Below, one piece after another: positions 3,646 to 64,000 of a DNA stretch of 64,000 nucleotides. The translations under genes and the position numbers were made by a program. This DNA comes from Zygnema cylindricum. Lineage: Eukaryota; Streptophyta; Zygnematophyceae; Zygnematales; Zygnemataceae. The notes below the pieces were generated by a model, which saw only the letters and a list, made by a program, of their open reading frames with translations, was not told the DNA's origin and made no database searches. The stretch covers positions 62,001 to 126,000 of the forward strand of contig JBBHKE010000847.1 of the NCBI GenBank assembly GCA_037447655.1, given 5' to 3'. How positions within the stretch are numbered: the first letter of the stretch is position 1; each line of letters begins with the position of its first letter.

Positions 3646-3690
3646 TCGGTTCTGATACTCCTTTTCCCACCGCTTGGAAATAGGGAATTG

Positions 3691-8374: not shown

Positions 8375-8387
8375 CTCCCCTTAATTC

Positions 8388-9200
8388 CTAGTCACTTTTT
8401 AATTTTAATCCACAGTTTTCTCTGCAATAAATCAACTTAGGGGAAGGCACTGGTTTTGTCATCATGTTTGCTATCATTTCTCTATCAGTTTTATGAACCA
8501 GTTTAATAATTTTATTTTCAACCTTCTCTCTGACAAAGCTCAGTCTAATATCCATATACTTAGCTTTGAAGTGATGTTTCGGATTAGCTGCAATAGAGAT
8601 AGCAGCTTGATTATCACAAAAAACATTTTGAGTTCCAGACTTCATGAACCCAAGTTCTTCAAGAAGAGATTTAACCCACATTAATTCTTTGGTGGCAGCA
8701 CAGGAAGCCATGTATTCAGCCTCCATAGTGGACTGAGCAATTACTTTTTGTTGCTTGCTACTCCAACAACATGCACCGGATCTAATTTGCAACACATATC
8801 CAGTCGTACACCGCCTTAAAGGCACATCTCCATAACTGACATCACTCCAGTTGGTGATGTCAGTGTGCTCCCCTCCCAAATGCAACCATAATTCCCTTGT
8901 CCTCACCAGATACCTCATCACCCTTTTGGTAGCCTCCCAGTCTCTCTTTCTTGGTTCATTTAGACTTCTACTAAGGACACCTACAGCTGCAGCTATATCC
9001 GGACGGGTACAGTTCATTAAATAAATTAAACTGCCTACAATCTGCCGATAAAGGATATTTTCTATAAATTTTCTTTGTATCTCATCGATCTCATCATTAA
9101 TGATCAATATTCCTCTCTCTTCACTCCCCTCAAACACATTCTTCAAATCCATACGAGTAGTACATCCGTTTGCTTTTTCCATCTGAAAACTTTCTAGCAT
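8388..9200 (-). CDS. Copia C RNase H and RT C-terminal region
   Basis: 270-residue ORF beginning in the RT thumb/connection (QMEKANGCTT) and running through the copia RNase H, which degrades the RNA strand of the RNA-DNA hybrid. Recognisable blocks are NWSDVSYGD, the EAEYMASC block with its acidic residue, FCDNQAAI and ANPKHHFKAKYMDIR near the C-terminus. It ends in a TAG just upstream of the purine tract. It is separated from the RT frame by a short frameshifted gap (9201-9345). Apparently intact as a domain. Confidence 0.88.
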   Translation of the reverse strand: MLESFQMEKANGCTTRMDLKNVFEGSEERGILIINDEIDEIQRKFIENILYRQIVGSLIYLMNCTRPDIAAAVGVLSRSLNEPRKRDWEATKRVMRYLVRTRELWLHLGGEHTDITNWSDVSYGDVPLRRCTTGYVLQIRSGACCWSSKQQKVIAQSTMEAEYMASCAATKELMWVKSLLEELGFMKSGTQNVFCDNQAAISIAANPKHHFKAKYMDIRLSFVREKVENKIIKLVHKTDREMIANMMTKPVPSPKLIYCRENCGLKLKSD

Positions 9201-9345
9201 ATTACTGATTGCTCTTATTGAGTGAGTCTTATAATTCTATTCCCTCTATCTCTCTCCATTTGAATTCCCAAAATATACTTTGCTTCGCCGAGATCTTTCA
9301 TATCAAAACTGCTTCTAAGATCTCGTTTTAGTTTGTTAATTTTAT

Positions 9346-10077
9346 CTAAGACTTGCTTAAGACCAACAAATCATCTACATAAATAGCAATAAATATCACT
9401 CCATTCTCATCCTCAAATAAATATATAGAGTGATGTGAACTAATTCTGATATACCCAAAACCGGTCAGAAATTCGTCTAGCTTTATATTCCATTGTCGTG
9501 GGGCTTGCTTAAGCCCATAGAGTGATTTTATTAGTTTACAAACCTTGCTTTCTTCCCCGCTTTCCACGAATCCTTCCGGTTGCCTTATGTAAATTTCTTC
9601 TTCCAACTCTCCGTGCAAAAAGGCCGTTTTAATATCCATCTGGTGTATTTCCATATCCTCCGCTGCGGCTATACTTAAAAGGATTCTAACTGAAGGAAAT
9701 CTGACTACAGGTGCAAAGGTTTCTTCGTAGTCTATCCCCTCTTTCTGAGTATAACCTTTTGCAACTAACCTAGCTTTGTACCTCTCAATGGTATTATCGG
9801 GGTTTAATTTAAGTTTAAAAACCCACTTACATCCGATCGGTTTTCGGTCTGGTGGACAATCTACCAACTCCCATGTATTGGCTTCCATGATGGAGGCCAT
9901 TTCTTCATTTATAGCAGAGATCCACCGGCTACTTTCTGGGGTGTTTATTGCCTCTAAGTATGTCTGAGGTTCATCTGGGTGAGACATCTTTGTGAGTTGG
10001 TTATTTACTTGTCTTTTTTGAAGTCGTTTACTACTTCTTCTCCCCCCTTCAAAATCAGACGCCGATATGGAAGGCAT
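9346..10077 (-). CDS. Copia C reverse transcriptase
   Basis: 243-residue open frame covering the fingers and palm of a Ty1/copia RT, the enzyme that copies element RNA into DNA. It includes the typical WELVDCPPDRKPIGCKWVF entry, the palm block around FLHGELEEEIYIRQP, SLYGLKQAPRQW, and the catalytic YVDD at residues 233-236. The start Met lies in the integrase-RT linker, so the true product is part of a polyprotein. The frame is lost just after YVDDLLVLSKS. Confidence 0.92.
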   Translation of the reverse strand: MPSISASDFEGGRRSSKRLQKRQVNNQLTKMSHPDEPQTYLEAINTPESSRWISAINEEMASIMEANTWELVDCPPDRKPIGCKWVFKLKLNPDNTIERYKARLVAKGYTQKEGIDYEETFAPVVRFPSVRILLSIAAAEDMEIHQMDIKTAFLHGELEEEIYIRQPEGFVESGEESKVCKLIKSLYGLKQAPRQWNIKLDEFLTGFGYIRISSHHSIYLFEDENGVIFIAIYVDDLLVLSKS

Positions 10078-10086
10078 CCTTGGGTT

Positions 10087-10944
10087 TCAGTTAGGAAGAT
10101 TTGCAGCTTCCCTATCTTCCGATTCCGGTGTCTCATCAAGTTCCTCATCAGTTTCCACTTCGTATTGTGGCGTTGCCTCGGATGTTGTCCTTTCCTTCTT
10201 CTCCTTTGGTAGATCTGCAGATTTTTCTTTTTCTCCATCTTCCTTTTCTTCAAAGTCAAAGTCAAAAAACGGATCCGTTTCAAATCTGATTTTGACTTCC
10301 TTATTATATTTGAATGGATCAATGGACTTCTCTTCATTCATCACCACTATGTGTTTTACCAAAATAATATCTCTCTTTTTGAAGTCATACACCCGGTATC
10401 CTTTTGTGCTCTCATCATATCCTACAATATATCTTGGTTTCCATTCCTCTAACTTCCATTTAGTCTTATCGGAATCCAAATTGTAGACTTGACTTCCGAA
10501 CACTCTAAAACTAGACAAATCAGACTTTCTTCCTGTCCACCTCTCATACGGAGTTTCCTCCTTATTTGCTGAAGTAAGGACTATATTTTTGATGAAATTA
10601 GCATAGTTCATAGACTCAGCCCAAAATTGCAACCCTATCCTCTTATCAGTTAACATACTTCTGGACATATCTCCTAACATTCTATTCACTCTTTTTGCTA
10701 CTCCAATATGTTCCGGATTATAGGGAACAATTTTCTCATGATGAATTCTTTCTTCTTTAAGATATTCTTCAAATTCCCTTGAGGTATATTCTTTCCCATT
10801 ATCACTTCTTATCTCTTTTATTGAGGTTTCATGTAGTTTTTCACTCCATACTTTAAACTTTTTGAAACATCTTAATACCTCTGACTTATGTCTGAGAAAG
10901 TATACCTTCGTGTATCTAGACCAATCATCTGTGATGGTTAACAT
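10087..10944 (-). CDS. Copia C integrase core with a catalytic substitution
   Basis: 285-residue frame holding the retroviral-type DDE core. The first Asp sits in TITDDWSRY (residues 6-7) and the second in RSDNGKEY (Asp48). Thirty-five residues on, where the catalytic Glu should stand (GVAER in sister copies D and F), this copy reads GVAKR with AAA coding Lys84, so strand transfer should be abolished. The tail contains the copia GKR-like region and an acidic linker to RT. Integration of this copy must have used an earlier intact enzyme or one supplied in trans. Confidence 0.88.
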   Translation of the reverse strand: MLTITDDWSRYTKVYFLRHKSEVLRCFKKFKVWSEKLHETSIKEIRSDNGKEYTSREFEEYLKEERIHHEKIVPYNPEHIGVAKRVNRMLGDMSRSMLTDKRIGLQFWAESMNYANFIKNIVLTSANKEETPYERWTGRKSDLSSFRVFGSQVYNLDSDKTKWKLEEWKPRYIVGYDESTKGYRVYDFKKRDIILVKHIVVMNEEKSIDPFKYNKEVKIRFETDPFFDFDFEEKEDGEKEKSADLPKEKKERTTSEATPQYEVETDEELDETPESEDREAANLPN

Positions 10945-11006
10945 CCATCTCTTCCCCCCATGTGAAGCATACCTAGCTGGTCCCCAAACATCAGTGTGAA
11001 CTAGAT

Positions 11007-11690
11007 CTAATACTTTCTCTCTCTAAATGTGGTTGCCTTTGGAAATGGAAGTCTATGAATCTTCCCTTGGGCACATCCACTACAATCATCAAAGGTCTCA
11101 TCATCCTCAAAAGTAATACCCTCCACTATTCCCTTTTTCTTCATTTTTTTTAATCTATCTAGATGCACATGCCCCAACCTTTTATGCCAAAGCATCATCT
11201 CACTTGCTAACGAGTAGAGAACACTCTTTTCATTGCAAAGAACAATTATGAACATTCCTTGACTGCCCAACTCATCTATGAAATAAACCTCATTATCAAG
11301 CTTGCTGTGAAGATTCCTTTCCTAGTTCCTGTTTCAAACTCCTTTTCATCTAGGACAGCAGTTAAGACTAGGTTCTTGCTAAGCTGTGGAATGTAAAGAA
11401 CGTCTGAGAGTGATAGAATTGAGGCCTTTCCATCAACTAGAACCTTCAAGTCAAAAGTTTCAACAAGACTTGTGGTTTCTACTCTACCATCTCCGTACTC
11501 TATCTCAACTGTTGGGATCTTTCTCAGTTTAGTGAACCACCGCTTATCTTTGCACATATGCATTGAAGCCCCTGATTCTATGATCCACCCATCCTCGGGT
11601 GGATCCTTCTTACCTCCGAAAGCACACTTTTGTCTCAGTGGAATGTCGACATGCTTTTCAGTGTTTTTGGATTAAGAAAAAGCTCCTCAA
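11007..11690 (-). pseudogene. Copia C protease and integrase zinc-binding region
   Basis: Two frames (11276-11563 and 11007-11270) carry the copia protease and the HHCC integrase N-terminus (MLWHKRLGHVHLDRL, then CSGCAQGK). Just upstream, at about 11570-11590, the protease active site reads ESGAS instead of DSGAS seen in the other copies, a loss of the catalytic Asp. A frameshift near 11275 separates the halves. Confidence 0.8.
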
Positions 11691-12548
11691 GCTCCTATTC
11701 TGGTTCAGTTTTTCCTTCCACTTCCTCATTATGAACTTGAGTCAAGAAAGCCTTTTTCTTTCCTCCATCCCTTAAGGTTCCTTGACCATCTTTCAGTCGA
11801 AGATCTACAAGTTTGACACAATCTGCCATATAGTGTCCGATTTGTTGCAGAAGTGACATAATCCCCCTGGAGATGTTCCTCTCCCCTGTCTATCAAATCT
11901 CCCACCTCCTTGTCCTCTTCCACCAAAGTTTCGATAGGGATCTTTCCCTCTCTCCTCATCACGCTTCCGCCAATCAGCTCTTGCAAACAATGCTTGAACA
12001 CTTGGACTCCCTCACCTAAGCTCAATGGTGCTTTCTTTCACTAAAATCAATCCCACTGTGTCATCCCAATTCCAATTGCTATCTCCCATGTCCTGCAATA
12101 GGTTAGTGATATTCTCATACTCTTCAGGTAGTTTCATCATTAATGTGTTCACTCTTTGTCTCTTGGACCATGAGTTACCTGCACTCTCTAACTCTCCAAA
12201 TAATGCTCCTTAATCATTGCAATAATTATTCATACTTCCTCCTTTATAAGTATAAGCTGCAATCTTATTTTCGGCCAACAGTTGTTATTACAATGATCCA
12301 CTCTTATATTTGTTAACTAGTGATATCCAAATCTGAGTTGAAGATTTGACATGCATAAGGGGAATGGCAATGCCCTTTGCTACACTTATAAGAATTAAGA
12401 GCTTAGAAACCTTGTCTTTGTAGTTCCACTTTTCATACTCTGATCTTTCGGTCTGAACCCTTGTCGCCGTTTTTGGTGGTGCTGCTGCCGGTATCGCCTT
12501 CGGCAATGGTGTCATTTGAGTTGCAACTCCTCCCTTTTCTCCTTCCAT
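11691..12548 (-). pseudogene. Copia C gag remnant
   Basis: Starts MEGEKGGVATQM at 12548 and contains typical copia gag (UBN2-like) helices (IWISLVNKYKSG) before losing frame at about 12288. The nucleocapsid Arg/Gly region and the start of a zinc knuckle (CHFCNKSD) are at 11805-11990, where a frameshift destroys the His/Cys half. The 5' end of gag, which in sister copies starts inside the LTR, is closed here by a TAA in the LTR copy at 12792-13680. Confidence 0.75.
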
Positions 12549-12778
12549 GAAAATCTCCTCTCTTTCCTCATCTTCATCCTCGGTGATGGTGACAGCTGTT
12601 CTACATACTGTAAAGGCGGAGGTGCCAGAAAAACGTGTCCCTCCAAACCCAGGTAGAGGTGGGCATCAAATTTGTCCAGACACTATGCCCCCCATAGATG
12701 CTTCTCAAATAGTTCTCCCTCCATCATCATTTCCCAATAAAGAAAGTCTGATTCATCAAATATGGGCACCCCAGAGGG

Positions 12779-12791
12779 TGGGCCCATAACC
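12779..12791 (-). other. Copia C primer-binding site, initiator tRNA-Met anticodon-loop type
   Basis: Minus strand reads GGTTATGGGCCCA directly after the LTR end. It is complementary to the anticodon stem-loop of eukaryotic initiator tRNA-Met, not to the tRNA 3' end, matching the half-tRNA priming described for Drosophila copia. Equivalent sites adjoin LTRs D, F, I, J and K. Confidence 0.75.
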
Positions 12792-13680
12792 CGAAATTAT
12801 GTGGTCTCCATTTACCCACAGAATGAGCAGCCTATGTAAAGCCTCTAGGATAATATTTGCCCCTTCTACTTTCCCGCTGAATAAGCGCCGCCCAGGCACA
12901 CAAATATTCTCACCACCCTCAACGTTGTGAGGACAAGACTCCCTTGAGTTAAACGCAAAAAGAATCAATGAATTTACTCCCCTGAGCAGTAAGTTATGGT
13001 TGGTCAAAGATGACCTTTTAGTTACAAGCTCTCTTAGAGAGAGAGGTACCTAAATATTACTAAGTCTCGGTCTGCCTACTCACGACTACCTACTACTAAA
13101 CACTAGTCCAATAGAAACACTATATAGTACAAGAAGGTTCAATGGGCGATGTACTTATTGTACGACCATTGTACGACAAGGTCTACAAGGTGACACCTGT
13201 CAAATCGGAAGCCATGGTTCCTCCTCCCATTTTCTCCAGTATCAAATAATGTGGCGCCACGTGGCACTGCGTGGCGCTATCTCCGTATGCCGCCAAAATC
13301 TCACTTCGCGTGGCGGCTATAATGCCGGCCGTCCGATCAAAACATATTTTACACGGTTCAGATTTGCGTACATGCAGGAATTGCTCCTTTTGGTTAGTCT
13401 CCTGTTAATTAGCTATTGCCTTAATGTTTATATATTTATGAAACCCGTCACGTGTATCGTTTCGTAACGCCTTAATGGTTAAGGCGTTAGGCTGTAAAGA
13501 GTCTAGAGGTCACAGGTTCAAATCTAGACCTAGGCATCATTTTATCCAAAATACCCTTATCTGCAAAAACTGCCACTTTCTAAATATGGCGGCAGCCATG
13601 GCGCGCCTTTGATCCTCACTCTCTTTCTTTAAAACAAAACTAAAATAGGGAAGTGAACTATTAATTACCTCTTTTCAACA
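12792..13680 (-). repeat. Copia C 5' LTR (889 bp)
   Basis: Near-identical partner of 7487-8374. Terminal TG of the U5 end is mutated to CG (12792). G-box-like GCCACGTGGC lies at 13256-13265. The antisense tRNA-like module has an A-box-like AATGGTTAAGGCG at 13474-13486 and a B-box-like GGTTCAAATCT at 13515-13525. Confidence 0.93.
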
Positions 13681-14805
13681 GCCTCCCGTATCAGGATCAA
13701 CTCTTCTTCCAATGCTCTCTTCCTTTCCTCTTCAAGGGCATCCCAATCTATTGCGACCGGTCCGGCCCCCGCCGAAGCCTTATCCTGCGATCGCAGAATC
13801 TCAACCAATTTTTGGGTGCTGCTCACCACACCCGAGAGATCCGCAATCCCCAAACCGGGTACCTCGGGGTCCGTAGGCCTTGAACGCCATAGTCCTTCGG
13901 ATGGTCAGACAACTGGTGCGGAAGGAGACATGGAACTTGGGGGAATTGAGGCAAAAGGAAAGAATGGATCTTCTTTGACTAGGGGAGCAAATCGACCTTT
14001 GCTGTCCCGATGGTTGAACCGGAAATCTCTCTTAGGCTCAGGTAACTTCCGCTTGCAACTCCCTTCCCTGGTCCGGCCCCGAGAAGTGGCTCTGCCCCTA
14101 GAAGGTCTACTAGTAGCAGTTTCCTCAGATATGGAGGGCTGTTGTAATGAAGTAGACGGCATCTCCGGTTGCTCTCGGACTGAGATGGGAGGGCCACTTT
14201 CGGACAAGCTACTCAGGATCTCCACTACTCCTCCCACTGGGCGTATGATCTGAGCTCGGTCGCTTTCTGGCAACCCGTTGCACCAGCTCCTTCTTAACCT
14301 TCAATTCATGGATATTGTGAAGGGCTAGAATCTCCTTACGACCGGGTCGGTTAGGATCCGACAAAAGTTCAGGATCCATGTATGTCTCCACTATCGGAGC
14401 CTTGGATCTGGTATAACGTACCACCTCGGGAGGGTGGCCTGGGACCGTTTCCTTATGAGCCAAACCCTTCCTACGGGATTGGGGAGCAATAGTCTGTCTT
14501 TCTACCTTCTCCGTAGCCCGAGCCCTGGCAGCCTCGGACAACGTCGGAAAGTTTTCAGGGGAAAAGACCGGAGGAGGTAGAGGAGAGGGTCTCCCCTCTG
14601 GGGGCGTAGGAGGAGTGTCGACCGCAACCCCCCGGGGCATTTCTCCCTTAAGAAACCGCTCTATGTGTACAGGTGAGCCAAAGGGGGGTGCTCCCTCGGG
14701 CACCTGTGACTCTTCCTCGTGGGCCGCCGCTTCCTGCCTCTCTTGCTCGTCTGATCTGACACCCGCAAGATCCTTATCCTGGACTTCTCCTCCCCCCATA
14801 GCCAA
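13681..14805 (-). pseudogene. Element B gag N-terminal region
   Basis: Minus-strand frame from ATG at 14805 (MAMGGGEVQDKDLAG), rich in Glu, Pro and Arg, shifts frame near 14240 into 13905-14273 and again into 13665-13853, whose heptad-like EEERKRALEEELILIREA segment looks coiled-coil forming. It then meets the copia C insertion. Position and direction make it the 5' part of element B's gag, giving an unusually long N-terminal extension before the capsid. No enzyme domain seen. The start is chosen because no open frame continues further upstream. Confidence 0.55.
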
Positions 14806-16100
14806 CTGGAGAAGAAGATCTAAATCTCCTTATAAAAGTACTTCGATCTGAGCACCTATCCTCTTTATCCTAAAGAGACAGGGTGGCTTTTCAGTACTGT
14901 GCTACTCCGCTGGAAGCCCACTAAATGCCACACTCCCAACTACTCTCCAAAGAATAGGAAGGAAATGAGAGTCGTCCGATCCTATTCGCGAAAACTCCGG
15001 ACAAACCCAAAGATGACCACAAGAGTGTGCAAATAACTCCCACGCAGAAATATAGAAATTACAAATATCGGCTTTTCAGATTAAACAATATCACCTTACC
15101 CCAGAGAATGGAATTAAAGATAGAAATAAATAATAATGGTGAAGCGAATTCACATACCCCGGAGTGCAACGATGACCAAACTAAGCAGAAGAAAACCTCT
15201 CCCAATGGCCTCGAAGACCGGTATGAGTCTCCCTCACCCCTCGCGGTTCCACCATAAGGATCCGACAAGACTCTTCTTAGTTTCAAACAGCGAAAGTCCA
15301 AACCGCCCAAAGAGGAGATAGTGCCAACTACCCATCCGTGCTACGATCTCCACAAAAGACAATACAAAACAAAGATGGCAATAGAGTCAACGACACAATG
15401 CAACCGTTCTCTAACATAAAGATTGATTTAATTCTCTGGGGGTTCTCTCAGGAGACAGTACTGAAAAGCCACCTGTCTCCTTCGGCCACAAAGTGCCTTA
15501 TACAACCAGAGTTTGTCCTACTGCAAGTTCCAAAGTCAAAGCAATGTGACAAGCCAATCAGCGGCCAGCAATTGTTATCGTACGGACATCAGACAAAACA
15601 GACTGTACTACACTCAGGGCTAAAAGTTAGATGACTAGTCCCAGCTGGATTAGCGGCTGTGGGTCCTCCTATGATACACAAAATGGAAACAAAGTTCTGA
15701 CTCGACGTGAAACCGCCTAACTTTGACCCAAAGTCATTAATGCTTTGCCCGGCTGTTGGGCCTAAACTAACATCCTACTGACAGCTAACAGTAGGATCTA
15801 CAGGATAATCCCAAAGGTTACGTGTCGTTCTCTAATGTATCCCTCTACTAGAGCTACATAGAACACACAATATAATAGAGCAGACGCTTTGCACCGGACT
15901 AACTTCGCCGTTTGGCCTTCGTTTCAGGTGAACTAAATTGCGTAGGGCTCCAGAGTGAAAATATAAAGATCTGTTCCGGCTAGTTGTCCTCTTCCTTCTT
16001 CGTACGCTAGAGTCTGTACAAAGTAGAATGAGGCCCCAGAATTCCTGGGAGTGCAAATGTGCCGAAGACGCACACGAGCTTGACATACGCCGTACTTAAA
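14806..16100 (-). other. Probable leader and 5' LTR zone of element B, not delimited
   Basis: No convincing gene. Upstream of gag on the minus strand this stretch should hold the leader and 5' LTR of element B, but the 3' LTR is outside the window so the borders cannot be fixed. Seen here: inverted copies of a 24-25 bp sequence containing GTGGCTTTTCAGTACTGT (about 14875-14898 and 15453-15477) and a 9-bp-stem hairpin ATCCTACTG/CAGTAGGAT near 15771-15797. Confidence 0.4.
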
Positions 16101-34240: not shown

Positions 34241-34285
34241 CTCCTCATCAAAAGGAGCTCATCGTCCTCGTTCTCGGATTCCGCC

Positions 34286-35099: not shown

Positions 35100-35296
35100 T
35101 GAAGGTGGATCCTCTTTCCTGGTGAATCTGGTTCCTCAAACCCTGGAGGAATTCCAAGACTTGATGGACGCCCCAATCGTCCACTCACTCATCCCCCCAA
35201 AACCTTTTTTCGCATAGAGCTCCTATCATCATACTTTCCCAGTATATGAAGCCAGTTCCATTAAAGATTGGTACCCTAGAGGGTGGGCCTATAACT

Positions 35297-48210: not shown

Positions 48211-48223
48211 CTCCCCTTATTTT

Positions 48224-52518: not shown

Positions 52519-53554
52519 AAGTCCTCAGAGTGGACAGCTTCCAAGAAGCCTCTACGATAACCTTGGCCCCTTTGTGTTTCAGCAAGAACAATTGCCACCA
52601 TGGCAGACAATAACACTGACCACCTTCACCCCTATAAAGGCAAGACTCGGGTGAGTCGATAGCAAAAAGAATCTCTGAATTTGCTCCCGTGAACAGTAAG
52701 TTATGGAGTGTCAAAGTTAACTTTTTGTACAGAAGCTCTCTGGGAGAGAGGATCCTATCTCCTAATTTTTATAAGTCGTATCTCTCTCACAGACTCTATC
52801 TACTGCTGTAAGAAACCAATTAGATTACACTTCCGTACATAAAAGTACAGCTGTCGGTGTACTCTCTGTACAGACACTGTACGACATGGCCTAAATGTCG
52901 ATACGTGGTATATGCGGATTCGCTCCTTTAATCCTCGGATATGCCGCGATCCAATGTCATTCCGCCACGTGTCATTTGATGTGGCGATTACCAAAAACTG
53001 CCGAAATCCTCTTTCGCGATCTCGGCATAAATTCCGGCCGTCCGATTAAATTCACATTTAATCGTAACCGTAATGAATACATGTGCGGTATTCATTTCGC
53101 TAAAGAAATAACTGCGCGATATTGGTTTCTTATCCGTATCGTAATTCGTACTTTTACATTAATGGATCTATGTATCCCGTAAACAATTACAGTTAAATGA
53201 ATTATCCTACATATTAATGTTTAATTAAACATCAAACCATATAGTACTTAACACTACTTGAAGACTTAACGGCTAAGTTTACCGTCTACCAGCTGCTTGC
53301 CGTCCGGCAGGTATTAGGTTCAAATCATGTGGCCGGCACATATCTTTTTAGTAAATAAACCCCTAACTTATATATATTTCCCGTAAACCTTTGGATAGCC
53401 TAGGTAGCCATGGCTCTAGCTTCCTCTCCACTTTCTCAGTGACTGCGACAAGTTTGAGAGTTGGAGAGAGAAGTTAGAGGTAGACTGCCTCGACTTCTTT
53501 CTATATTTCTATTTAGACCTAGAATATACTTTAAACGGACCATTATTTTCTACA
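52499..53554 (-). repeat. Copia J 5' LTR (1056 bp)
   Basis: TG...CA ends. Terminal hairpin ACTCTGAG (52503-52510)/CTCAGAGT (52524-52531), ATG (minus) at 52516-52518. Primer-binding site at 52486-52498 reads GGTCATGGGCCCA, one mismatch. tRNA-like module on + strand near 53265-53340. Confidence 0.92.
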
Positions 53555-54767
53555 GCCCGGTTATTGCTTCTACTCGCGTAAGCAACTATTTATTCCTCTT
53601 TGCTTAACTTTCTTTGTGTCAAGATGGTAGTGATTCCACGTTTTCCAAAATCTGTCTGGAAACAGAAAGGGAGTTTGTGATTGGGAGGACGGAGAATTGG
53701 AGCGCTCGACAAGGCGGTTTTTAATTTCTGAAATGCGAGAATCTGATCAGGACCCCATATAAACGCCACTTATTTTTTGAAAAGGTCGTTTAACGGAGAT
53801 GCGATGGGGTTAAAACTAGATACAAACTTGCGATAATAAATAGCAAGTCGGACAAAGGCTCGCAGACTTGTGAGGTCTGTGGGAGCAGTCAATTTACTGA
53901 TTGCCTCTACCTTTGCTTCGAGAGCAGTGATCCCCTCAGCCGAGATAAAATGGCCAAGGTAAGGCACTCCCTCGGCTCTAAAGGTGCATTTCGCAGGATG
54001 ACATTTTAATCCGACCTTTTTTAATTAAATCAATACCCATTTGATGTGAGCTGCATGCTCTTCGATAGTAGCCGAGGCAATAATGAGGTCATCAATGTAA
54101 CATCTAGCAAACTTAGAACCTCTTAGAACGGAGTATATGACTTTTTGAAATACTGCCGGAACGTTTTTCAGTCCGAATGGCATTACGACCCATTCCCATC
54201 GGCCATCACTACCCCAAAAGGCAGTTTTATGCCGGTCTTTTTCCTCTATCTCAATTTGATTGAATCCCTGACGGAGGTCAAGGATACTAAAATACTTTGC
54301 TCCACCTACTTGATCAAATATTTCTTCAACAAGAAGCATGGGATGACGATCTTGAACCGTTCTAGCATTTAGTTCACAATAATCACCACACATTCGATGT
54401 TTAGTAAAATTACCCTCAGAATCCTTTTCCGAGGCATGACAGTGGGAGCTGCAAATGTGGAGTCTGACTAATAGATCAGGCCAGCTTCCTTTAGTTCAGC
54501 ACATCGCTTGTCTACCATTTCCCATTCAGTTTTTGACAAACGATGTTTCGGTTTAAATATTGGGGGGTCATCTTCGAGATCTATCGACATCTTATAAGCG
54601 GTGTGAATTCCCAAATCGTTCATAGAAAAGGCAAAGGCATTGATATTTCGTAAAACTACGTCATTCAGTAACTCTTGTTCGGCCTTTGTTAGATTGGTGC
54701 CGAATTTCCATTTAAAAGCATCGGGATTTTTGGTTGTCATAGCTTCTATGGCTTGTGCAAAGGCCAA
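53555..54767 (-). pseudogene. Element 2 reverse transcriptase and start of RNase H
   Basis: 54468-54767 is the conserved pre-RT/fingers part (KFGTNLTKAEQELLNDVVL, MSIDLEDDPPIFKPKHRLS), 54025-54393 the palm (MCGDYCELN, YFSILDLRQGFNQIEI, MPFGLKNVPAVFQ, catalytic YIDD), and 53770-53967 the thumb (PYLGHFISAEGIT, YYRKF, SPLNDLFKK). Beyond a stop at 53770 the RNase H begins with QTDFGKRG, where TDAS is usual. Ty3/gypsy type, clearly distinct from the copia RTs. Frameshifts at about 54400-54465 and 54000. Confidence 0.9.
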
Positions 54768-54867
54768 TTGCTTATCTACAATAAGCGTTTGACCTAACTC
54801 GTAAGCTACAGGTGTCTGTTTAAGGCAATTAGCCGAATGATTCTAACTGCGTGTTGGAAAAGCAACA

Positions 54868-56427
54868 CTCTAATGAGGAGTGGGTGGAATATGCATGGGA
54901 CTTGTAGATTGGACCGCCGTGTATGCGGGAATAGACCAGGACATATGGCTAGGGTTAAGGAAATCGTAGATAGAGATCTTCGGGACTGGTGGAATTGGAG
55001 AAGGAAAGAGGAAAAATTGAAATGTGGTCCCTTGGAGAGTGAGACGAAAAGATTTTCTTAGTGATGCATTCCCCCCCCCCACAGCTACTTGAGACGGATG
55101 TACCTAAGAGTGGCGACCTGCTGCAATCTAAAACAAAAGAAAAAGACCGAGGGTCCATGACACGACCTAATAATGTGCATCTTTGACGTTCTGTAAGACT
55201 AGGAGCGGCTATAAAGCCAGGAATGAAATGCATGAGGTGTTCTCATTCCGTAGAGGTAGGCTCTTCGAGCTCACCGGTATTAATGTTTCGGAGCATGCCA
55301 GGACCGTCATTAGATTATGCATGTGAATGTGGGTAAGAAACTAAGGTAGGAAGCACCTTGAGAGGTTTACCCAGGACACTGAAATTAGGGGGATAGTCAT
55401 TTTGAATGCAAGGCTGCACTTTATGGAAAGGAAGGAGGGTAGCGTGAATGTCTGTAGGAGGAGGACAAACTAACAAGTTGGCCTCACGGAGTCTACCCAT
55501 ATCGATAAGGTTCGTCCATTTGGAGAGAACCTGGTGTGCTAGTGAACCATGGCAAGTTGCTTCAATAATAAGAGGCAGACGAATTAATTGTTCGATCCGT
55601 TGATAATCAGCCAAAACTGTAGGGCTTGGATCATTATAGGCTGCGACATTTTCCAAGATATACCCCATAAGATGATCTAAAGTTTGTAGAATATGCAGGA
55701 TGCGAACCAATTCAAAAAAAAAATTGGTGCGGGGATCGGCTAATCCGAGACCTTTCCCAACCCGGGACATTCCCTGGCACTCCAATCCGCCAAGAACTAG
55801 ATTGATTCGACTAATCTCTAGTAAGTGATGGTTGCCCACAACCCGAATGTCTTGTGGGAGGGCAGTATGCATATGCTCATATGCAAATTATGGTAACAAA
55901 TGCGGGTATTTGGAATGTAACTGATTACAATGATGTAATTGTGCTTTCCGTGCTAACGGATCAATCTCAACCGAATAATACAATCGGATTAATAATCCAT
56001 TCTGCAAACAAACAAGGAGGGAAGTGCCCATTCTAACGAAGAGGTCCAAAATCACCATTCCATTTGTATGAGGTTTCAATTGGACCGGATTCCAATTAAT
56101 GGGAAGAAACCCAGAAGAGTCTGTAGGGACTGGGATTGTAGGAGAGACCGGAGAAAGTGGAATTGACAAGGTTTAGTTATAGAGTCGATCAAATTTCCTC
56201 GTATCTATAAGAAAACCAGGGTCACTTAAAATTTCTGGTAAGTAACAACTATTGGGGAGAATTTCTTCAGCTGACAATGAATGAAACATTTTGGCCCCCA
56301 CCAAATTCCCTGAAAATGCATGTATGGATGTGGCCGAATTCGCCATAACACGCATGGGCTTCCTAGCGGAAATTAGCGGAATACAGATTTTGCGTTCCGG
56401 GAAGTTAGTGGGCCTAAAAGAAAATGT
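54868..56427 (-). pseudogene. Element 2 DNA methyltransferase, inactivated
   Basis: All pieces (56173-56355, 55888-56169, 55315-55872, 54955-55233) are in one frame with the protease, interrupted only by nonsense codons. Motif I reads DLFVRMG (element 3: DLFVGIG), losing a SAM-contacting Gly. Motif IV is LECQG, with Glu in place of the near-invariant Pro; motif VI GYILENV is kept; motif VIII reads AHQVLSKW; motif X QRCTLLGRVMD is present near 55165-55200. A run of ten G (minus strand, 55071-55080) follows, after which the RT-side frame is different. Dead as an enzyme; C5-methyltransferase identity is secure from motif order. Confidence 0.88.
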
Positions 56428-56955
56428 CTAATCATGCATGTCAACTCTACCCCCTACACAAAATATAACGTCATGTCCCACTAGGCATTCATAGTTACTA
56501 CACTTAGTGACCAAAGCGTGAACCGAGATCTCATCAAATTCTGTGGCCGTTCCGTTTTGGAACCTGAAAACGAGCGGTTCCTTAGTGATTTTTAGGACTG
56601 GCTCGGTTGTACCCGCTGATGTTAACAAGCGGGTAGAAGTGGTCTGAAGCTTGTCCGGAGTTAGACCAAGCTTGAGTGCAAAGCTAGAGCCCAATATCAC
56701 CGGCTTTGCACCCGTATCCATAAGAGGCAGGGAAGGGGCTATACCACTTATCAACAATGCACCCTTGTCGTTATCCAAAAAACTGATGTGAGGATTGAGG
56801 GAATTTCGCTCCCCTATGGAAATAGGCTGAATAGTAGCAAGATTTATGTGCAGCTGAAGTGCTTGTAACGCGACAGTTGCACCTGAGCTATCAGAGGTAA
56901 AGGAGATAGGGGAGATTTTTGGTGAGTCGGAAATCATAGTGGATAGAATGCACAA
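56428..56955 (-). CDS. Element 2 aspartic protease
   Basis: 175-residue ORF with retropepsin active site LMDTGAKPVILG (Asp80) and a C-terminal LVGHDVIF that corresponds to the second-loop hydrophobic-Gly signature. Ends at TAG where element 3 has CAG, after which the same frame continues into the DNMT linker. Intact active site in a dead element. Confidence 0.85.
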   Translation of the reverse strand: MCILSTMISDSPKISPISFTSDSSGATVALQALQLHINLATIQPISIGERNSLNPHISFLDNDKGALLISGIAPSLPLMDTGAKPVILGSSFALKLGLTPDKLQTTSTRLLTSAGTTEPVLKITKEPLVFRFQNGTATEFDEISVHALVTKCSNYECLVGHDVIFCVGGRVDMHD

Positions 56956-57440
56956 ACATTCTTTTACGCGGTGTGCCTCGTGTATAGTTCGGTTTCGGGC
57001 AAGGGAGAAGGTTCTTTAGTGAATGACAAATGGAAGCGTTTGTTAGGAGTTTTACCGTCACGGCTGTGATCGGTGGAACCTTTGTCGAATGTAGCCTCTC
57101 GTTGTTGGATGGTGGAATCGCGTAAGATTCGACCTGCCAACGTGGGCATGTGTACAACAGTGCGAGCCATGCCTGTAAACTGTGGTTTCATTTGAGTGAT
57201 GAAGGCTGCCAATTGTTCCTTCAGCATAGCCGCCCTTTGCTCTTACATTTCTAAACTCTCTCTGCCTCTTAGAGATACCCTAGGTGGTGTGGTGTCCTTT
57301 TCCGGTTCTTTAACCGGTTAAACCAGTTTTGCGGATCGAGCGGGAATGCCACCATTCTTAATTTAGATCTATGTAAATTCGGGATCTTTATATGACAAAG
57401 TTGGACGCAATTATGCGGTTTGCTTGCAATGTGTATAGTA
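56956..57440 (-). pseudogene. Element 2 gag C-terminus with degraded zinc knuckle
   Basis: 56964-57227 matches element 3's segment QFTGMARTVVHMPTLAG, and 57269-57440 retains a damaged knuckle (SKPHNCVQLCHIK against CKQTGHYVQRCHIK in element 3). The rest of gag is missing; sequence beyond about 57440 belongs to a + strand fragment. Confidence 0.7.
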
Positions 57441-58664
57441 TTTTGTCTGGGCATATTAATAATGTCAAACCCCGCCTTGCCACGTTTACTCACACCAGAA
57501 CAGCAAACCCGGTTACGACATTATGAGATCCCTCGATTAAGATTTCAAAATGGTGCAAAATCTGATTTCGCGAAATCGCTCTACGCATTGGTCACCAAAT
57601 GTAGTGATACTGAGTGTTTAGTGAAGCCCGATGTGATTTTAGAGTGGGGCGTTGACATATCGATAATTTCCTGTATTTATCCAATTATCCGGAGAAGAAA
57701 TTTGTCTCCGTAATTCAACCACGACAACCAATACATATTACTCCATATTAATTGTCCATGCTATTCATAAATTTGGGTTTGATTTTCATTCTCACAGCGG
57801 AGAAGTGCGCTCCGTGGGTCCGTTTTGCTAAGTACTACGTTAATCCGGGTTTGTGTGATTCTCGCGAGTTTGATTGCATTTACAAACACTTGATTCTTTA
57901 TAGAGTTCCCTCGCCGTTTCGTTTGATGGATCATGACTTTTTTATTAGTCATTTTAATATTTACAAAATATATTACCTCTCTACTTCGCAAGCCCGATTA
58001 CTTATCAACCTCTTTGCTTATGGACATTATTCTTCTTCAGCAGAGCATCAGTGCAATCTTTACCTGGGACAATATGATATCATTTCCCAATCGGCTGTTC
58101 ACGTAAACAACCTTACCTGGGATATTGGGACGATGGGCGATCAGCGCTTTTCGATGTGGAACTAATGGGTCTTCTCTTTAGGTTGGGGTGTCGCGAGAAA
58201 TGCGAGCAATCAAGGTCTGGATTTGTCAATGAACTAAAATTATTCTTTGAATTACTTGTTATCATGCATTTTGCAATCATTAGATGGGTGTTGGGATATA
58301 TTTAAGCATTGCGACCTATGATCCTCACCAATGTTATAATTCTGGCGGACAAAACATTGGTGGTCCTCCGCGTTCGTGATGGCACGAGTCGGCCCGTAGG
58401 ACGTGGGAGGGATAAAGAAAGAGCTAAAATTATGTTAAGTTGGTTGGATGTGGTTTGGTGTGGCGGGCGGTAGTCAGACTGCGTTATAGGCCGGTATAGG
58501 TTAAGCAGATTCACAGAACTTTGGTCCTATGGATCAGCGCTTTAAGCACTTTGACATGTTATTGGTGATGGGATACAATCGATGATCGGTTTACTGAAGA
58601 TGCAATATCTTGATAAACCCTCGTGCCTCTTTTAGCGACACCGGACTGCCCCTCGAAACCATTA
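57441..58664 (+). pseudogene. DNMT element 4: diverged protease-DNMT fragment on the + strand
   Basis: ORF 57420-57713 contains RLRFQNGAKSDFAKSLYALV and TKCSDTECLV, matching the protease C-terminus of elements 2 and 3 (VFRFQNGTAT, TKCSNYECLVGHDVI). ORF 57752-58165 matches the linker (LCDSREFDCIYK against IDTREFDRIYN) and a worn motif I (RLLINLF). In another frame at about 58239-58310, KLFFELLVIMHF and LGYI parallel KLFFELVRILHF and MGYI of the DNMT. Motif IV is unrecognisable beyond a Cys. Much older or faster-evolving than its neighbours, and in opposite orientation. Confidence 0.65.
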
Positions 58665-59923
58665 TGTAGAAATCGATGGTTGTTTTATTATTTTCTAGGT
58701 CTAAATTGGAATATAGAAAAGAAGTCGAGGCAGTGTGCCTCTAACTTCTCTCTCCAAACTCCCGCACTTGTTGCAGTCACAGAGAAGTTGGAGAGGAAGC
58801 TAAATCCATGGCTACCTAGGCTATCCAGAGGTTTACAGAATGATATTTTATGTTCTATCTTTTTTGGGTCCTGCAGTTCTCATACTTGTCGTAGTCACTG
58901 AGAATTCACAGGCAGCCATGTCTGCCTTAGACAGATGAGGAGATAGGCAGAAGATTAGGCTCCTGCAAAAACAATGTTGCCACAGACAGTATTTGATCCT
59001 GCAACCTCCGGACACCAGCCGTACGAACTAGGCGCCCGCCTTATCCGTCAGGTCTTAATGAATCGTTGCATGAGCCGTACTCGATGGCATATTCCATTTA
59101 ACATCCTACGAAACGAAACGCAACAGGGAATGTGTGGTACTGCACGAAATGCAGTAGCGCACGAAATTAATGAAACAAACATTTAATTTCGACAGACGAA
59201 GTTAAATGTCGCGATCGACGGTTCGCAAAGCGAGAACGAATTTCAAACGATCAACACGGAATGTTGACCGTCGAAATTCAACGGTCAACACGGAACTTTG
59301 ACCGGTGAAATTCAACGGTCAACATTTATTCGGCGCGCCGTCAGATTTAACGGCTGAAATCGATCGCCGTAAAAAGAACGGACGGCACGCATGAGTGCCG
59401 GTATGCCGGAACTACTATCTAGGAGCAATTTGGCAAAAAAGGAGGAAATGACACGTGGCATCATCCTATTGGATGCCGAAAGAGGAAAGGGACAGAATGA
59501 CGTTGACCTATTTGACACGTGGCAGACCGGGAGTGGTGCCGAATATATCCGTACATAAAGTACGACGGCTTCTGTACTTTATATGTACGATAGTTAGGGT
59601 ACTCTATTTTGATTGGTTTAGAATAGCTATTAGGAGTAATTCAAGACTTAGAAAAATATTGAAAAGTCCTCTCTCTCTCACAGGCCATCTGTACAAATAT
59701 GCTGTCTTTGAACAGCCATAACTCAATGCTCAGGTGAGCAAATTCAGTGATTCTTTTTGCAGCGGACTCAGGGGAGTCCACGCTACACAGGGGTGTAGTC
59801 AGTCAGAGTTTTTGCGTCTTAGGGTGGGACTTATTCATTGTCAAAGTCAAAAGTACATATACTATCCTAGAGGCTTCACATAAGCTGGACATTCTGTGTA
59901 CCAATGGAGGTCACAGAATTACA
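58665..59923 (+). repeat. Copia K 5' LTR (1259 bp)
   Basis: TGTAGAAATCGATGG start, ATTACA end. Contains 34-35 bp tandem repeats (59239-59325), an antisense tRNA-like module (B-like 58985-58999, A-like 59037-59049), small hairpins TGCTCAGGTGAGCA (59727-59740), GGACTCAGGGGAGTCC (59764-59779) and CTACACAGGGGTGTAG (59783-59798), and a perfect terminal hairpin ATTCTGTG (59891-59898)/CACAGAAT (59912-59919) with ATG at 59904-59906. Confidence 0.9.
59239..59325. repeat. 34-35 bp tandem repeat in the copia K LTR
   Basis: About two and a half units starting at 59239, 59274 and 59308, each with an AATTCAACGGTCAACA-like core and TTGACCG counterpart, so each unit is also partly self-complementary. Accounts for part of the extra length of this LTR. 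Confidence 0.75.
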
Positions 59924-60170
59924 GGTTATGGGCCCACCCTCTAGGGTGCCCATTTTTAATGGAACAGGGTTCATTTATTGGGAAACCATGATGAGGGGTG
60001 CAATGTTTGAAAAACGGCTATGGGGCATTGTGAGTGGTCGTGTGGGTCGGCCATCCGCTAAATTGGGAGTTCCACGAGGGTTTGGAGGATCTCGGTTCAC
60101 TGGGGGATCTGCAGGGGCAGAGGGGGTGGAGGATGTTGCAGAAAGCACCATGTCAGACAAAGGGAAGGAG
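59904..60170 (+). CDS. Copia K Gag N-terminus, cut by an assembly gap
   Basis: Starts at the ATG in the LTR hairpin loop: MEVTELQVMGPPSRVP, then FNGTGFIYWETMMRGAMFE and LWGIVSGRVG, a Gly/Ser-rich stretch and an acidic SDKGKE end at the Ns (60171-60180). The LTR boundary (59923) and primer-binding site (59924-59936, GGTTATGGGCCCA) are inside the reading frame. The sequence beyond the gap is not the continuation. Confidence 0.8.
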
Positions 60171-60180
60171 NNNNNNNNNN

Positions 60181-60411
60181 GGCCGTATTTTAACGGAAAA
60201 CCCCATCGCTGCCGGCTACCCTTACCCGGCATAACGGTAAGCCTGACTTTTTACGAAGCCGTCATAAAGTTACCTGAAACAAAAACCTCCAACATTCAAA
60301 CGATCTACAATGTAGCTACTGGAGTAGTAACGGAGAAGATGATAGCTTCTCGTACGACGAGTGTAGCTTACGCATAACTGACTTAATTTTTTCCAGCCTA
60401 ATTTTACAGTA
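60181..60411. other. Unidentified sequence between gap and element 3
   Basis: No gene recognised. It adjoins the Ns on one side and replaces the expected RT thumb of element 3 on the other (similarity stops after EAISRPT). ORFs crossing it are chimeric. Confidence 0.4.
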
Positions 60412-61315
60412 GGTCTACTGATTGCCTCTACCTTTGCTTCGAGAGGAGTGATCCCCTCAGCCGAGATAAAATGGCCGAGGTAAGGCACTCCCTCGGCTCC
60501 AAAGGTGCATTTCGCTGGATGACATTTTAATCCGACCTTTTTTAATTCAGTCAATACGCATTCGATGTGAGCAGCATGCTCTTCGATAGTAGAAGAGGCA
60601 ATGATGAGGTCATCGATGTAACATCTAGCAAACTTACAACCTCCAAAAACAAAGTCCATTGAAATACTGCCGAAGCATTTTTCAGTCCGAATGGCAATAC
60701 GGCCCATTCCCATCGGCCGTCGCTACCCCAAAAGGCAATTTTATGCCGGTATTTTTCCTCTATCTCAATTTGATTGAATCCCTGACGGAGGTCAAGGATA
60801 CTTAAATAATTTGCTCCGCCTACGTGATCAAATATTTCTTCGCGAAGAGGCATGGGATGACAATCTTAAACCGTTCTACCATTTAGTTCACGATAGTCAC
60901 CACACATTCGACGTTCAGTAAAATTACCCTCGGAATCCTTTTTCCGAGGCATGACAGTGGGAGCTGCAAATATGGAGTCTGGCCAATAGATTAGGCCGGC
61001 TTCCTCTAGTTCACTACATCGTTTGTCTACCATTTCCCATTCAGTTTCAAACAAACGATGTTTCATTTTAAATATTGGGCGATCATCTTCGAGATCTATC
61101 GACATCTTATAAGCGGTGTGACGACCCAAATCGTTCATAGAAAAGGCAAAGGCATCGACATTTCGTAAAACTACATAATTCAGTAACTCTTATTCTGCCT
61201 TTGTTAGATTGGTGCCAAATTTCCATTTAGCAGCATCGGGATTTTCGGTTGTCATAGCTTCTATGGCTTGTGCAAAGGCCAACTGCTCATCTGCGATAAG
61301 CGTTTGACCTAACTC
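60412..61315 (-). pseudogene. Element 3 reverse transcriptase
   Basis: Pre-RT (FGTNLTKAE, stop at about 61190), fingers 60866-61138 (MSIDLEDDRPIFKMKHRLF, FTERRMCGDYRELN), palm 60551-60853 (NYLSILDLRQGFNQIEI, LPFGLKNASAVFQ) and, after a deletion, YIDDLIIASSTIEEHAAH in 60270-60713 with PYLGHFISAEGITPLEAKVE. Frameshift at FQ-WTLF and a stop after NGRTV. Confidence 0.88.
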
Positions 61316-61571
61316 GTAAGCTACAGGTGTTTGTTTAAGGGTATTAACCGAATGATTCCAACTGCGTGTTGGAAAGTAGCACTCCAATGAGGAGTGGGTG
61401 GAATATGCATGGGACTTGTAGACTGGACAGCCGTGTATGCGGGAATAGACAAAGACATATCGCCAGGATTGAGGAAATCGTAGATAGAGATTTTCGGAAC
61501 TGGTTGAATTGGAGAATGAAAGAGGAAAAAATGAAATGTGGTCCTTTGGAGAGTGGGACGGAAAGATTTTT

Positions 61572-63060
61572 TTAGTGATGCATCCCCCCCCCCCCAGCTG
61601 GTTGAGACGGATGTGCCTGAGAGTGGCGACCAATTGCAAACCCAAGACCTAGAACAAAAGACAAAGACAGAGGGTCCATGACACGACCTAATAAAGTGCA
61701 CCTTTGACGTTTTGTAAGACCAAGAGCGGATGTAGTGCTAGGAATGAAAGGCATGAGGTGTTCGTTCCGTAGAGGTAGGCTCTTCGAGCTCACCGGTATG
61801 AATGTTTTGGAGCATGCTAGGACCGTCATGAGAGAATGCATGTGAATGTGGGTAAGAAACTAAGGTAGGAAGCGCTTTGAGAGGTTGACCTAGGACATTG
61901 ACAGTGAAATTAGGGGGACAGTCCTTTTGAATGCAAGGTTGCACTTTATGGAAAGGAAGAAGGGCATCCTGAATGTCTGTAGGAGGAGGAGGAACTAACA
62001 AGTTGGCCTCACGGATTCTACCAATATCGATCAGGTTCGTCCATTTGGAGCGAACCCCGTGTGCAAGTGAACCATGGCGAGCCGCGTCAATAAAAAGAGG
62101 CGGACCAATTAATTGTTCAATCCGGTGATAATCAGCCAAGACTGTAGGTCTTGGATCATTATAGGCTGCGACATTTTCCAAGATATACCCCATAGGATGA
62201 TCTAAAGTTTGTGGAAAATGCAGGATGCGAACCAATTCAAAAAATAATTTGGTGCGGGGGTTGGTTAATCCGAGACCTTTCTCGGCCCGAAACATTCCTT
62301 GGCACTCCCATCCGCCAAAAACTAGATCGATTTGACCAATCTCTAGTAAGTGATGGTTGCCAACAATCCGAATGTCTTCTGGGAGAGCAGTATGCATATG
62401 CTCGTATGCAGATTTTGGTAACAAATGCATGTATTGGGAATGCAACAGATTACAATGATGTAATTGTGCTTTCCGTGCTAACGGATCAATCTCAACCGAA
62501 TAATAAAATCTGATTAATAATCCATTCTGCAAACATGCCAGGAGGGAAGTGCCTATTCCAACGAAGAGGTCCAAAATCACCAATCGATTTGGATGAGGTT
62601 TCAATAGGACCGGATTCCAATTAATTGGAAGAAACCCAGAAGAGTTTGTAGGGACTGGGATTGGAGGAGAGACCGGAGAAAGTGGAATTGACAAGGTTTG
62701 GTTATAGATTCGGTCAAATTCCCTCGTATCTATAAAAAAACCTAGGTCACTGAGAATTTCTGGTAAGTAAAAACTATCGGGCAGAATTTCTTCTGCTGAC
62801 AATGAATGAAATATTTCAGATCCCACTGAATTCCTTGAAAATGCAGGTATGGATGTGGCCGAATTTGCCATAACAGGCATGGGCTTCCTAACGGAAATTA
62901 GCGGAATGCAGATTTTGCGTTCTGAGAAGTTAGAGGGCCTATAAGAAAATGTCTGATCATGCATATCAACTCCACCCCCTACACAAAATATAACGTCATG
63001 TCCCACTAGGCATTCATAGTCACTACATTTAGTGACAAGCCTGAACCGAGATCTCAGCAA
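61572..63060 (-). CDS. Element 3 protease tail, linker and DNA methyltransferase
   Basis: The 440-residue ORF (61738-63060) begins in the protease end (LVGHDVIF), runs through a 130-residue linker, then a C5-methyltransferase: motif I DLFVGIG (164-170), SVEIDP (188-193), motif IV GWECQG with catalytic Cys253 preceded by Glu instead of Pro, motif VI ENV (295-297), motif VIII-like AHGVRSKW (333-340). A one-base deletion after TSTER shifts motif X (KRQRCTLLGRVMD) into 61572-61841. Ends near a run of twelve G (minus strand, 61584-61595). Apart from that indel the domain is open and is the best-preserved DNMT of this subfamily. Proves a protease-DNMT fusion without a stop. Confidence 0.9.
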
Positions 63061-63442
63061 AGTATGTGGCTGTTCCGTTCTGGAACCTGAAAACGAGAGG
63101 TTTCTTAGTGATTCCTAAGACTGGCTCGGATGTACCCGCTGATGTTAACAAGCGAGTAGAAGTGGTTTGAAGTTTGTCTGGAGTTAGACCAAGCTTGAGT
63201 GCAAAGCTAGAGCCCAATATCACCGGCTTTGCACACGTATCCATGAGAGGCAAGGAAGGGGCTATACCATTGATCAACAATGCACCCTTCCCGTTATCCA
63301 AAAAATTGATGTGAGGATCGAGGGAATTTCGCTCCTCTATGGAAATAGGCTGAATAGCAGCAAGATTTCTGTGCAGCTGAAGTGCTTGTAACGCGGCAGC
63401 TGCAGCTGAGCTTTCGGAGATAGAGGGGATTTTTGGTGTCAA
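63029..63442 (-). pseudogene. Element 3 aspartic protease with mutated active site
   Basis: 137-residue ORF aligned to element 2's protease; active site reads MDTCAKPVILG, the Gly of DTGA replaced by Cys (position 70), which should disable it. A small deletion near 63045 shifts the last part into the DNMT frame. Confidence 0.85.
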
Positions 63443-64000
63443 AAATCATAGTGGAAGAATGCACAAGCATTATTTGACGCGGTGTGCTTCGTATATAGTT
63501 CGATCCACTATGTTGAGAGCTTTAGCCGCGATGGCTGAAGCGGTTTTGGTCAAAGGAAGAGAAGGCTCTTTAGTGAATGACAAAGGAATGCGTGTGTTAT
63601 GAGTTTTACCGTCACGGCTGTGATCGGTCGAACCTTTGTCGAACGTAGCCTCTCACTGTTGGATGGTTGAATCTCGTAAGATTTGACCTGCCAACGTGGG
63701 CATCTGTACAACAATGCGAGCCATGCCTGTAAATTGTGGCTTCATTTGAGTCATGAAGGCTGTGAATTGTTCCTTCATCATAGCCGCGATTTGCTCTTGC
63801 ATTTCTAAACGCTCTCTCTCTCTTTGAGATACCTTAGGTGGAGTGTTGTCTTTCTCCGATTCTTTAACCGGTTTAACCGGTTTTGCGAATCGAGCGGGAA
63901 TGCCACCATTTTTAATTTGGTTCTGATAGGAAAATTCTGGGTTTTTTATATGACAACGTTGAACATAGTGTCCGGTTTGCTTGCAATGTGTACTGGTAAC
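63443..64000 (-). pseudogene. Element 3 gag C-terminus with zinc knuckle
   Basis: Minus strand from the right edge reads STHCKQTGHYVQRCHIK, a CCHC knuckle whose first Cys is changed to Ser, then basic/proline-rich sequence and a predicted helical segment (ERERLEMQEQIAAMMKEQF) and the block QFTGMARIVVQMPTLAG. A frame break lies near 63660. The capsid is beyond the window. Confidence 0.7.

Follow-up and report, generated by a model that had tools for sequence, protein, structure and literature searches.

Decayed Ty3/gypsy retrotransposons with a DNMT3-type methyltransferase inside pol in the alga Zygnema cylindricum

A 64,000-nucleotide stretch of Zygnema cylindricum DNA (assembly GCA_037447655.1, contig JBBHKE010000847.1, positions 62,001 to 126,000; the whole stretch is called the window here) carries three broken Ty3/gypsy retrotransposons, termed elements B, 2 and 3, each of which encodes a DNA methyltransferase (DNMT) of the DNMT3 type. 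Taken as a whole, we consider it probable that all three are degraded copies from two subfamilies of a lineage of the KnitGypsy-Dnmt3 kind that has moved recently, with a mechanism that would involve stop-codon readthrough and methylation of the element's own cDNA. The kind itself is already known as KnitGypsy-Dnmt3, including its A-coding-B-A-B repeats (PMC5890265; statements drawn from this and the other papers cited refer to parts of their text). New here are relatives in Closterium, Marchantia, a chlorophyte and metagenomes in two layouts, a UAG codon before the DNMT, a Pro/Glu switch at the active site, and an ACA-GC-TGT repeat junction. No published description of the UAG, the second layout, the switch or the junction was found in a search that covered mostly titles and abstracts, with subscription journals mostly outside it. 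A kind published from one charophyte alga thus becomes a green-lineage family whose enzyme is under selection and which has inserted a complete copy recently at least once, and with these two facts in hand the question of why a transposon carries a silencing enzyme becomes testable.

A six-frame scan of all 64 kb with Pfam and family hidden Markov models (HMMs) bore out the order protease (PR), DNMT and reverse transcriptase (RT) that a first-pass annotation, made from the letters of the window, had proposed for elements 2 and 3 on the minus strand. The order gag, PR, DNMT proposed for element B was found as well. The annotation had counted four remnants; the scan yields three DNMT remnants, whose HMM matches are all far above chance. 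The domains of the three elements are as follows.

3889..4239, minus strand: element B aspartic protease (DTGA), HMM E 1.1e-22
3691..3693, minus strand: element B in-frame TAG, then CAATTC, a probable readthrough stop between PR and DNMT; position the same in 31/31 copies examined
2647..3690, minus strand: element B DNMT3-type methyltransferase (GWPCQ, ENV, GSRAHRVR); HMM match 2647-3489, E 1e-110; best PDB match DNMT3A
56467..56787, minus strand: element 2 protease, Pfam and family HMMs
55135..56061, minus strand: element 2 DNMT through motif X (GLECQ, LENV), broken by stops, HMM E 1.2e-85
53941..54438, minus strand: element 2 reverse transcriptase (YIDD) with one stop, Pfam and family HMMs
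53542..53757, minus strand: element 2 RNase H, first half, truncated by the copia element at 47307-53575, HMM
63068..63313, minus strand: element 3 protease, Pfam and family HMMs
61653..62583, minus strand: element 3 DNMT (GWECQ, LENV), open to 61741, motif X in a different frame, HMM E 2.7e-84
60462..60970, minus strand: element 3 reverse transcriptase split over two frames, HMM

Zinc knuckles are clear by sight in element B; the one annotated for element 3 is degenerate (Pfam E 0.17), and motif X, annotated for elements 2 and 3, is present in the element 2 DNMT but out of frame in element 3. The element 2 DNMT contains three in-frame stops and that of element 3 a frame change ahead of motif X. 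The element B DNMT lacks motif X because a copia long terminal repeat (LTR) at 1566-2658 cuts it at ~2655. Elements 2 and 3 are both dead copies, 88% identical over 3.6 kb, and their homology stops at 60416, not far from a run of N at 60171-60180 that marks a sequence gap. The three elements fall into two subfamilies, in keeping with the "at least two" of the annotation.

The genome search covered 352.8 Mb in 2,689 contigs, and its copy counts are lower bounds that include only the best-scoring candidates. The element B DNMT query gave at least 116 listed places among 1,851 candidates and the element 3 DNMT query at least 93 rows (92 copies) among 2,253; the two lists have no place in common and together hold more than 200 DNMT places. 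A query with RT-RNase H gave at least 113 rows (112 copies) among 4,302 candidates. Thirty DNMT loci were inspected with 1.5-kb flanks, and RT lies downstream in 27, PR upstream in 23, and both in 21. Among the 23 loci with PR, the PR-to-DNMT linker measures 385-406 bp in all but one, where it is 485 bp, which agrees with the ~130 residues first noted. The DNMT was also present in all four RT copies that had been chosen because no listed DNMT lay nearby. Given this linkage and these four copies, the DNMT belongs to pol as a rule, as the annotation had supposed. By cross-listing, 29 of the 113 RT rows have a DNMT from the lists upstream, and an RT is listed for 28 of the 93 DNMT rows, both lists being limited to the best-scoring candidates.

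DNMT-less sister elements were considered as an explanation of RT-RNase H-integrase-PHD frames of ~1,000 amino acids and were rejected, as a DNMT lies upstream in 4/4 examined cases (frameshifted in C2495 and C1063, interrupted in C561, largely open in C2602). At one of these places (L070, C561:261400-265400), the DNMT domain is split by an insert of ~1.4 kb; outside it, the element and the complete copy C1344 are 96% identical.

A genome-wide search for intact copies had been recommended with the annotation. C1344 has a single frame of 2,395 codons that encodes gag with two zinc knuckles, PR, DNMT, RT, RNase H, integrase and a PHD finger. Its A repeats (931 bp) are 100% alike and its B repeats (243 bp) 99.6% alike, which indicates a recent insertion. 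It has termini TGTC...GACA and is flanked on both sides by TTGG, a 4-bp target duplication. Copy C449 has the same layout, with A repeats 80% and B repeats 95.7% alike and flanks that agree at 3/4 bases.

The repeats are not the ordinary LTRs of the original label. In C1344 and C449, A stands alone at the 5' end and B-GC-A-B at the 3' end, so that the ends do not carry one complete LTR each and the order is A-coding-B-A-B. The B subfamily has the same 3' arrangement, B-A-B, in C2344, C507 and C1042. Their A repeats, lying behind a B repeat, align with the window from 16085 down to 14898, 14560 and 15281, respectively, and thereby identify the 5' A repeat of element B.

14898..16085, minus strand: element B 5' A repeat, beginning TGTCAAGC at 16085; inner limit according to C2344 (14560 according to C507, 15281 according to C1042)

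The outer limit at 16085 is the point where homology with the copies in C1374, C544 and C1920 stops. C1662 has no match to the 5' A of window element B, and C1407 has no recognisable 5' A and a partial 3' A. The inner B/A junction reads ACA-GC-TGTC in 5/5 readable copies (C2344, C507, C1042, C1344 and C449). It is the element's two termini fused end to end with a GC spacer, a structure that suggests replication through a form with joined ends. A pattern search for a tRNA-Met primer site gave matches no more frequent than chance.

The DNMT domain has unrearranged motif order, as in DNMT3, and lies inside the Pol frame, in the B subfamily in frame behind the UAG. A PDB search ranked DNMT3A best (3.8e-14), followed by M.HhaI (5e-5) and DRM2 (0.007), the last being a weak argument as phmmer performs poorly on rearranged DRM proteins. 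Ratios of nonsynonymous to synonymous divergence (Ka/Ks) were estimated from 7 of 11 B-type places and 8 of 22 element-2/3 loci, a choice that excluded the stop-free loci L009 and L029 and included L022 (window element 2, with three stops). Median Ka/Ks for the B subfamily is 0.245 for the DNMT (20 of 21 pairs defined) and 0.178 for RT (15 pairs). For the element-2/3 type, in which pairs with unsaturated Ks were used, the medians are 0.29 for the DNMT (16 of 28 pairs defined) and 0.30 for RT (15 of 28). By these ratios, the DNMT is under purifying selection.

The DNMT might be kept for a non-catalytic or non-DNA role, in which it binds or methylates element RNA or an RNA:DNA hybrid or acts as a scaffold, with Glu-Cys in place of Pro-Cys marking a change of use; we regard this as possible but unlikely. 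Among 71 rows (68 database proteins and the three window copies), 37 have Glu ahead of the catalytic Cys in motif IV and 31 have Pro, the remaining 3 being unreadable there; the switch requires 9 parsimony changes (7-10 across bootstrap trees), of which the starred branches force at least 4. Host loci of the element-2/3 type, many of them broken, are Glu-Cys in 19/22 (with Val-Cys in 2 and Glu-Phe in 1), and Glu-Cys is common to C1344 and copies whose Ks to C1344 is saturated; B-type loci are Pro-Cys in 12/12. Fusion to RT would also place the domain beside RNA and hybrid. However, 67 of the 68 readable rows retain the catalytic Cys and all 71 rows the motif VI Glu, and what the motif IV Pro does for the backbone could still be done with Glu in its place. 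This switch beside the catalytic Cys amounts to a natural experiment on C5-methyltransferase chemistry.

Two database queries returned 7 and 23 DNMT relatives, and the best 120 of 2,652 RT matches were examined. Named organisms with DNMT-bearing relatives include Closterium, Marchantia polymorpha, Klebsormidium nitens and the chlorophyte Chlamydomonas eustigma, and further relatives come from metagenomes; a scan of IMG/VR with one peptide pattern found no relative. The 149 proteins show two layouts, PR-DNMT-RT-RNase H-integrase (layout I) and RT-RNase H-DNMT-integrase (layout II), often with a terminal PHD finger. A layout could be assigned for 62 of 68 database DNMT rows, and layout II of P0014, P0015, P0019, P0024 and P0026 was assigned from the distance to integrase.

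In the DNMT tree, layout II rows form one side of a branch together with P0004 and P0005, which have no layout assigned (support 99 in the quick and 98/97 in the careful analysis). In the RT-RNase H tree of 131 rows, from which element B is absent as it has no RT, 55/55 DNMT-bearing rows lie in one clade of 108 rows with 100% support, separate from the gypsy rows of animals and flowering plants in this set. The other 76 of the 131 rows show no DNMT, many being pieces that start shortly ahead of RT, so that absence is not shown. As layout II forms one group and all DNMT rows fall in one RT-RNase H clade, the trees fit a single gain of the DNMT followed by one relocation inside pol. It is rather unlikely that the DNMT was acquired more than once and that the two layouts are independent gains. 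Such a history gains from the weak roots, since the DNMT tree is rooted on one long outgroup row and has weak deep branches, and the outgroup of the RT tree is not one side of any branch, with long branches meeting; it is opposed by the grouping of layout II and by the single RT clade. The annotation had proposed comparing DNMT and RT trees for a shared history, and several groups are indeed common to both (layout II; elements 2 and 3 with P0038), but not all deep branches are. A divergent RT-RNase H-integrase-PHD clade (P0079, P0096, P0108, P0110, P0126 and P0139) has a short DNMT remnant in one member only, and may lack or have lost the DNMT.

In the B subfamily, PR and DNMT share a frame with a TAG between them, at the same place in 31/31 copies. 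These 31 were drawn from the 116 listed places: the top ten, one copy with a long frame, and 20 divergent ones with a match from residue 1. The TAG thus stands there in 11/11 close places (L007 and L033 being the same place) and 20/20 divergent ones. The codon behind the UAG is CAA in 31/31 copies, followed by UUC in 30/31. Where a residue is shared by 22 or more of 24 copies, codon choice is invariant only at +3 (CAA), +6 (TTC), +18 and +21, all a short way past the stop, leaving Trp aside. The peptide QFPISKRWE is conserved in sequence and frame immediately behind the UAG, and in the 20 divergent copies the protein stretch behind it is 47-61% identical. C1344, which belongs to the other subfamily, lacks a stop at the corresponding position. 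A deviant genetic code was rejected as the source of in-frame stops, as the 12 inspected include each of the three stop codons and only the TAG before the DNMT was found conserved.

The UAG-CAA of the B subfamily is probably a programmed readthrough signal through which the DNMT would be made only within Pol. If leaky, this conserved stop would set when and how much enzyme is made, namely with RT and not with gag. Leaky stops of type I have the consensus UAG followed by CAR-YYA. Tobacco mosaic virus (TMV) and the B subfamily have UAG-CAA-UU in common and differ at the sixth base, C here and A in TMV. In a plant assay, the TMV site gave 32% readthrough (PMC2754532). It is quite improbable that the UAG is a true terminator of gag-PR, with DNMT-Pol produced by re-initiation or from another RNA. 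Close copies do have a Met at the 19th codon past the UAG from which translation might restart, but this Met occurs in 1/20 divergent copies. The conserved peptide together with the near absence of this Met favours readthrough over re-initiation, and the fixed CAA-UUC is likewise at odds with a plain terminator.

That the DNMT was captured by chance in single copies, or is a host gene invaded by a retrotransposon, is scarcely credible given more than 200 listed copies with PR and RT at narrow distances, many proteins elsewhere with the same layout, and DNMT and RT trees that share several groups. Secondary insertion in single copies, which the annotation had named as a way to be wrong, was not borne out, and neither was scattering of these DNMTs among host genes, human DNMT3A being the only host-type DNMT in the tree.

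From these sequences we infer the following scheme. In the B subfamily, most ribosomes would halt at the UAG and yield gag-PR, and a minority would pass it to yield gag-PR-DNMT-RT-RNase H-integrase-PHD, so that the virus-like particle would take up as little DNMT as RT. In the other subfamily, the DNMT would be made within the single frame. The enzyme may then methylate the element's own cDNA, either in the particle or in an integration complex that the PHD finger would tether to chromatin, and the new copy would arrive already marked by methylation. Replication would pass through an end-joined form. Self-methylation of cDNA has already been proposed for DIRS elements (PMC5890265). More speculatively, and with considerable doubt on our part, the whole might be a green-lineage family in which the DNMT is dosed by readthrough, Pro-Cys and Glu-Cys enzymes are interchangeable and have different substrates or tasks, and self-DNA is marked before DDE integration from an end-joined (circular or tandem) intermediate.

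Several observations weigh against the interpretation of B, 2 and 3 as remnants of a recently mobile, self-methylating lineage. All three window copies are broken, and C1344 is the only copy with identical repeats among those examined (n=1). Copies used for Ka/Ks were mostly stop-free by choice, which may lower the ratio. Since Glu replaces the motif IV Pro in over half of the readable family, catalysis is not to be taken for granted. The annotation's statement that DNMTs of such elements can methylate CG de novo holds for the dinoflagellate SymbioDIRS, but KnitGypsy-Dnmt3 gave no methylation in yeast, a test called inconclusive by its authors (PMC5890265). UAG-CAA-UUC (30/31 copies) fits 5/6 bases of the type I consensus, the last base being different. 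For a possible, conserved stem 3' of the UAG, pairing holds in 95.2% of cells versus 30-64% for slid versions; as a proven stimulator of readthrough it was rejected, with covariation no higher than in shuffles. Conservation past the UAG extends ~30 nucleotides in both protein and nucleotides, and is therefore perhaps partly coding.

Compared with KnitGypsy-Dnmt3, the elements have in common the gypsy domain set, an unrearranged DNMT3 in Pol, DIRS-like repeats and purifying selection (PMC5890265). Gypsy-type RT, RNase H and a DDE integrase occur at L031, L033 and L034 and in relatives (RT-RNase H clade 100%), and the repeats follow the same A-coding-B-A-B order. The K. nitens protein P0127, presumably KnitGypsy-Dnmt3, has the order PR-DNMT-RT-RNase H-integrase and a motif IV Pro-Cys. 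Its DNMT is just 40% identical to that of element B and 36% to that of element 3 over 222 residues. Key DNMT residues are conserved in the K. nitens element, and the parts of the text of PMC5890265 consulted, figures and supplements aside, mention no PHD finger, UAG between PR and DNMT, Glu-Cys or junction sequence.

We know of no DNMT in REM1 of Chlamydomonas. This element is likewise an unusual Ty3/gypsy element of a green alga. Its integrase is truncated and in reverse frame (PMC2774666). SymbioDIRS-Dnmt3 of Symbiodinium also has a DNMT3 inside Pol and split repeats, but uses a tyrosine recombinase (PMC5890265), whereas the present elements have an rve DDE integrase and, in C1344, the target duplication; the tyrosine recombinase and lack of target duplication that define DIRS elements are thus not found here.

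The PHD fingers at the C-terminus of Pol bear on the host gene repertoire. Among 150 scored PHD places in the genome (984 candidates), 53 lie behind a listed RT or DNMT, and the spacing between RT and PHD is 2,575-2,577 bp in 22 of 38 pairs. For Zygnema cf. cylindricum SAG 698-1a, presumably the host, a PHD family at least nine-fold larger has been reported, in a genome with 29.8% copia and 5.9% gypsy (PMC9915684); the part of that paper's main text consulted contains no word beginning with DNMT. The position and fixed spacing of the PHD places suggest that such an expansion is element-borne at least in part, and element PHD fingers may thus explain part of the apparent expansion of PHD 'transcription regulators'. 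A search for a plant-type DNMT3 by its DUF3444 domain (PF11926) gave one genome match (2 candidates) that is DnaJ-like by eye, with no DNMT HMM match in its 3.5-kb locus.

The remaining parts of element B are separated by a nested copia element.

13688..14897, minus strand: 5' leader and start of the gag region of element B, open frame 14212-14829, kept in other copies
7488..13687, minus strand: copia element nested in element B, terminal repeats 7488-8379 and 12793-13687, 93.4% alike
5190..7487, minus strand: remaining gag region of element B, two CCHC zinc knuckles by eye (~5.65 and ~5.3 kb)

No target duplication was found for this copia element; in the C1974 copy of element B, the parts that flank its site are ~120 bp apart. 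The ratio of observed to expected CpG is 0.84 in element 2, 0.81 in element 3 and 0.55-0.69 in three copia stretches; CpG depletion in elements 2 and 3 is thus not stronger than in copia and does not point to added deamination. Searches of the window for tRNA genes and Rfam families gave no match. The landscape is one of nested, copia-rich repeats, including copia copies with terminal repeats at 30002-36347 and 47307-53554 that are 88% alike. A 34-bp tandem repeat lies between elements 2 and 3, at 59237-59324.

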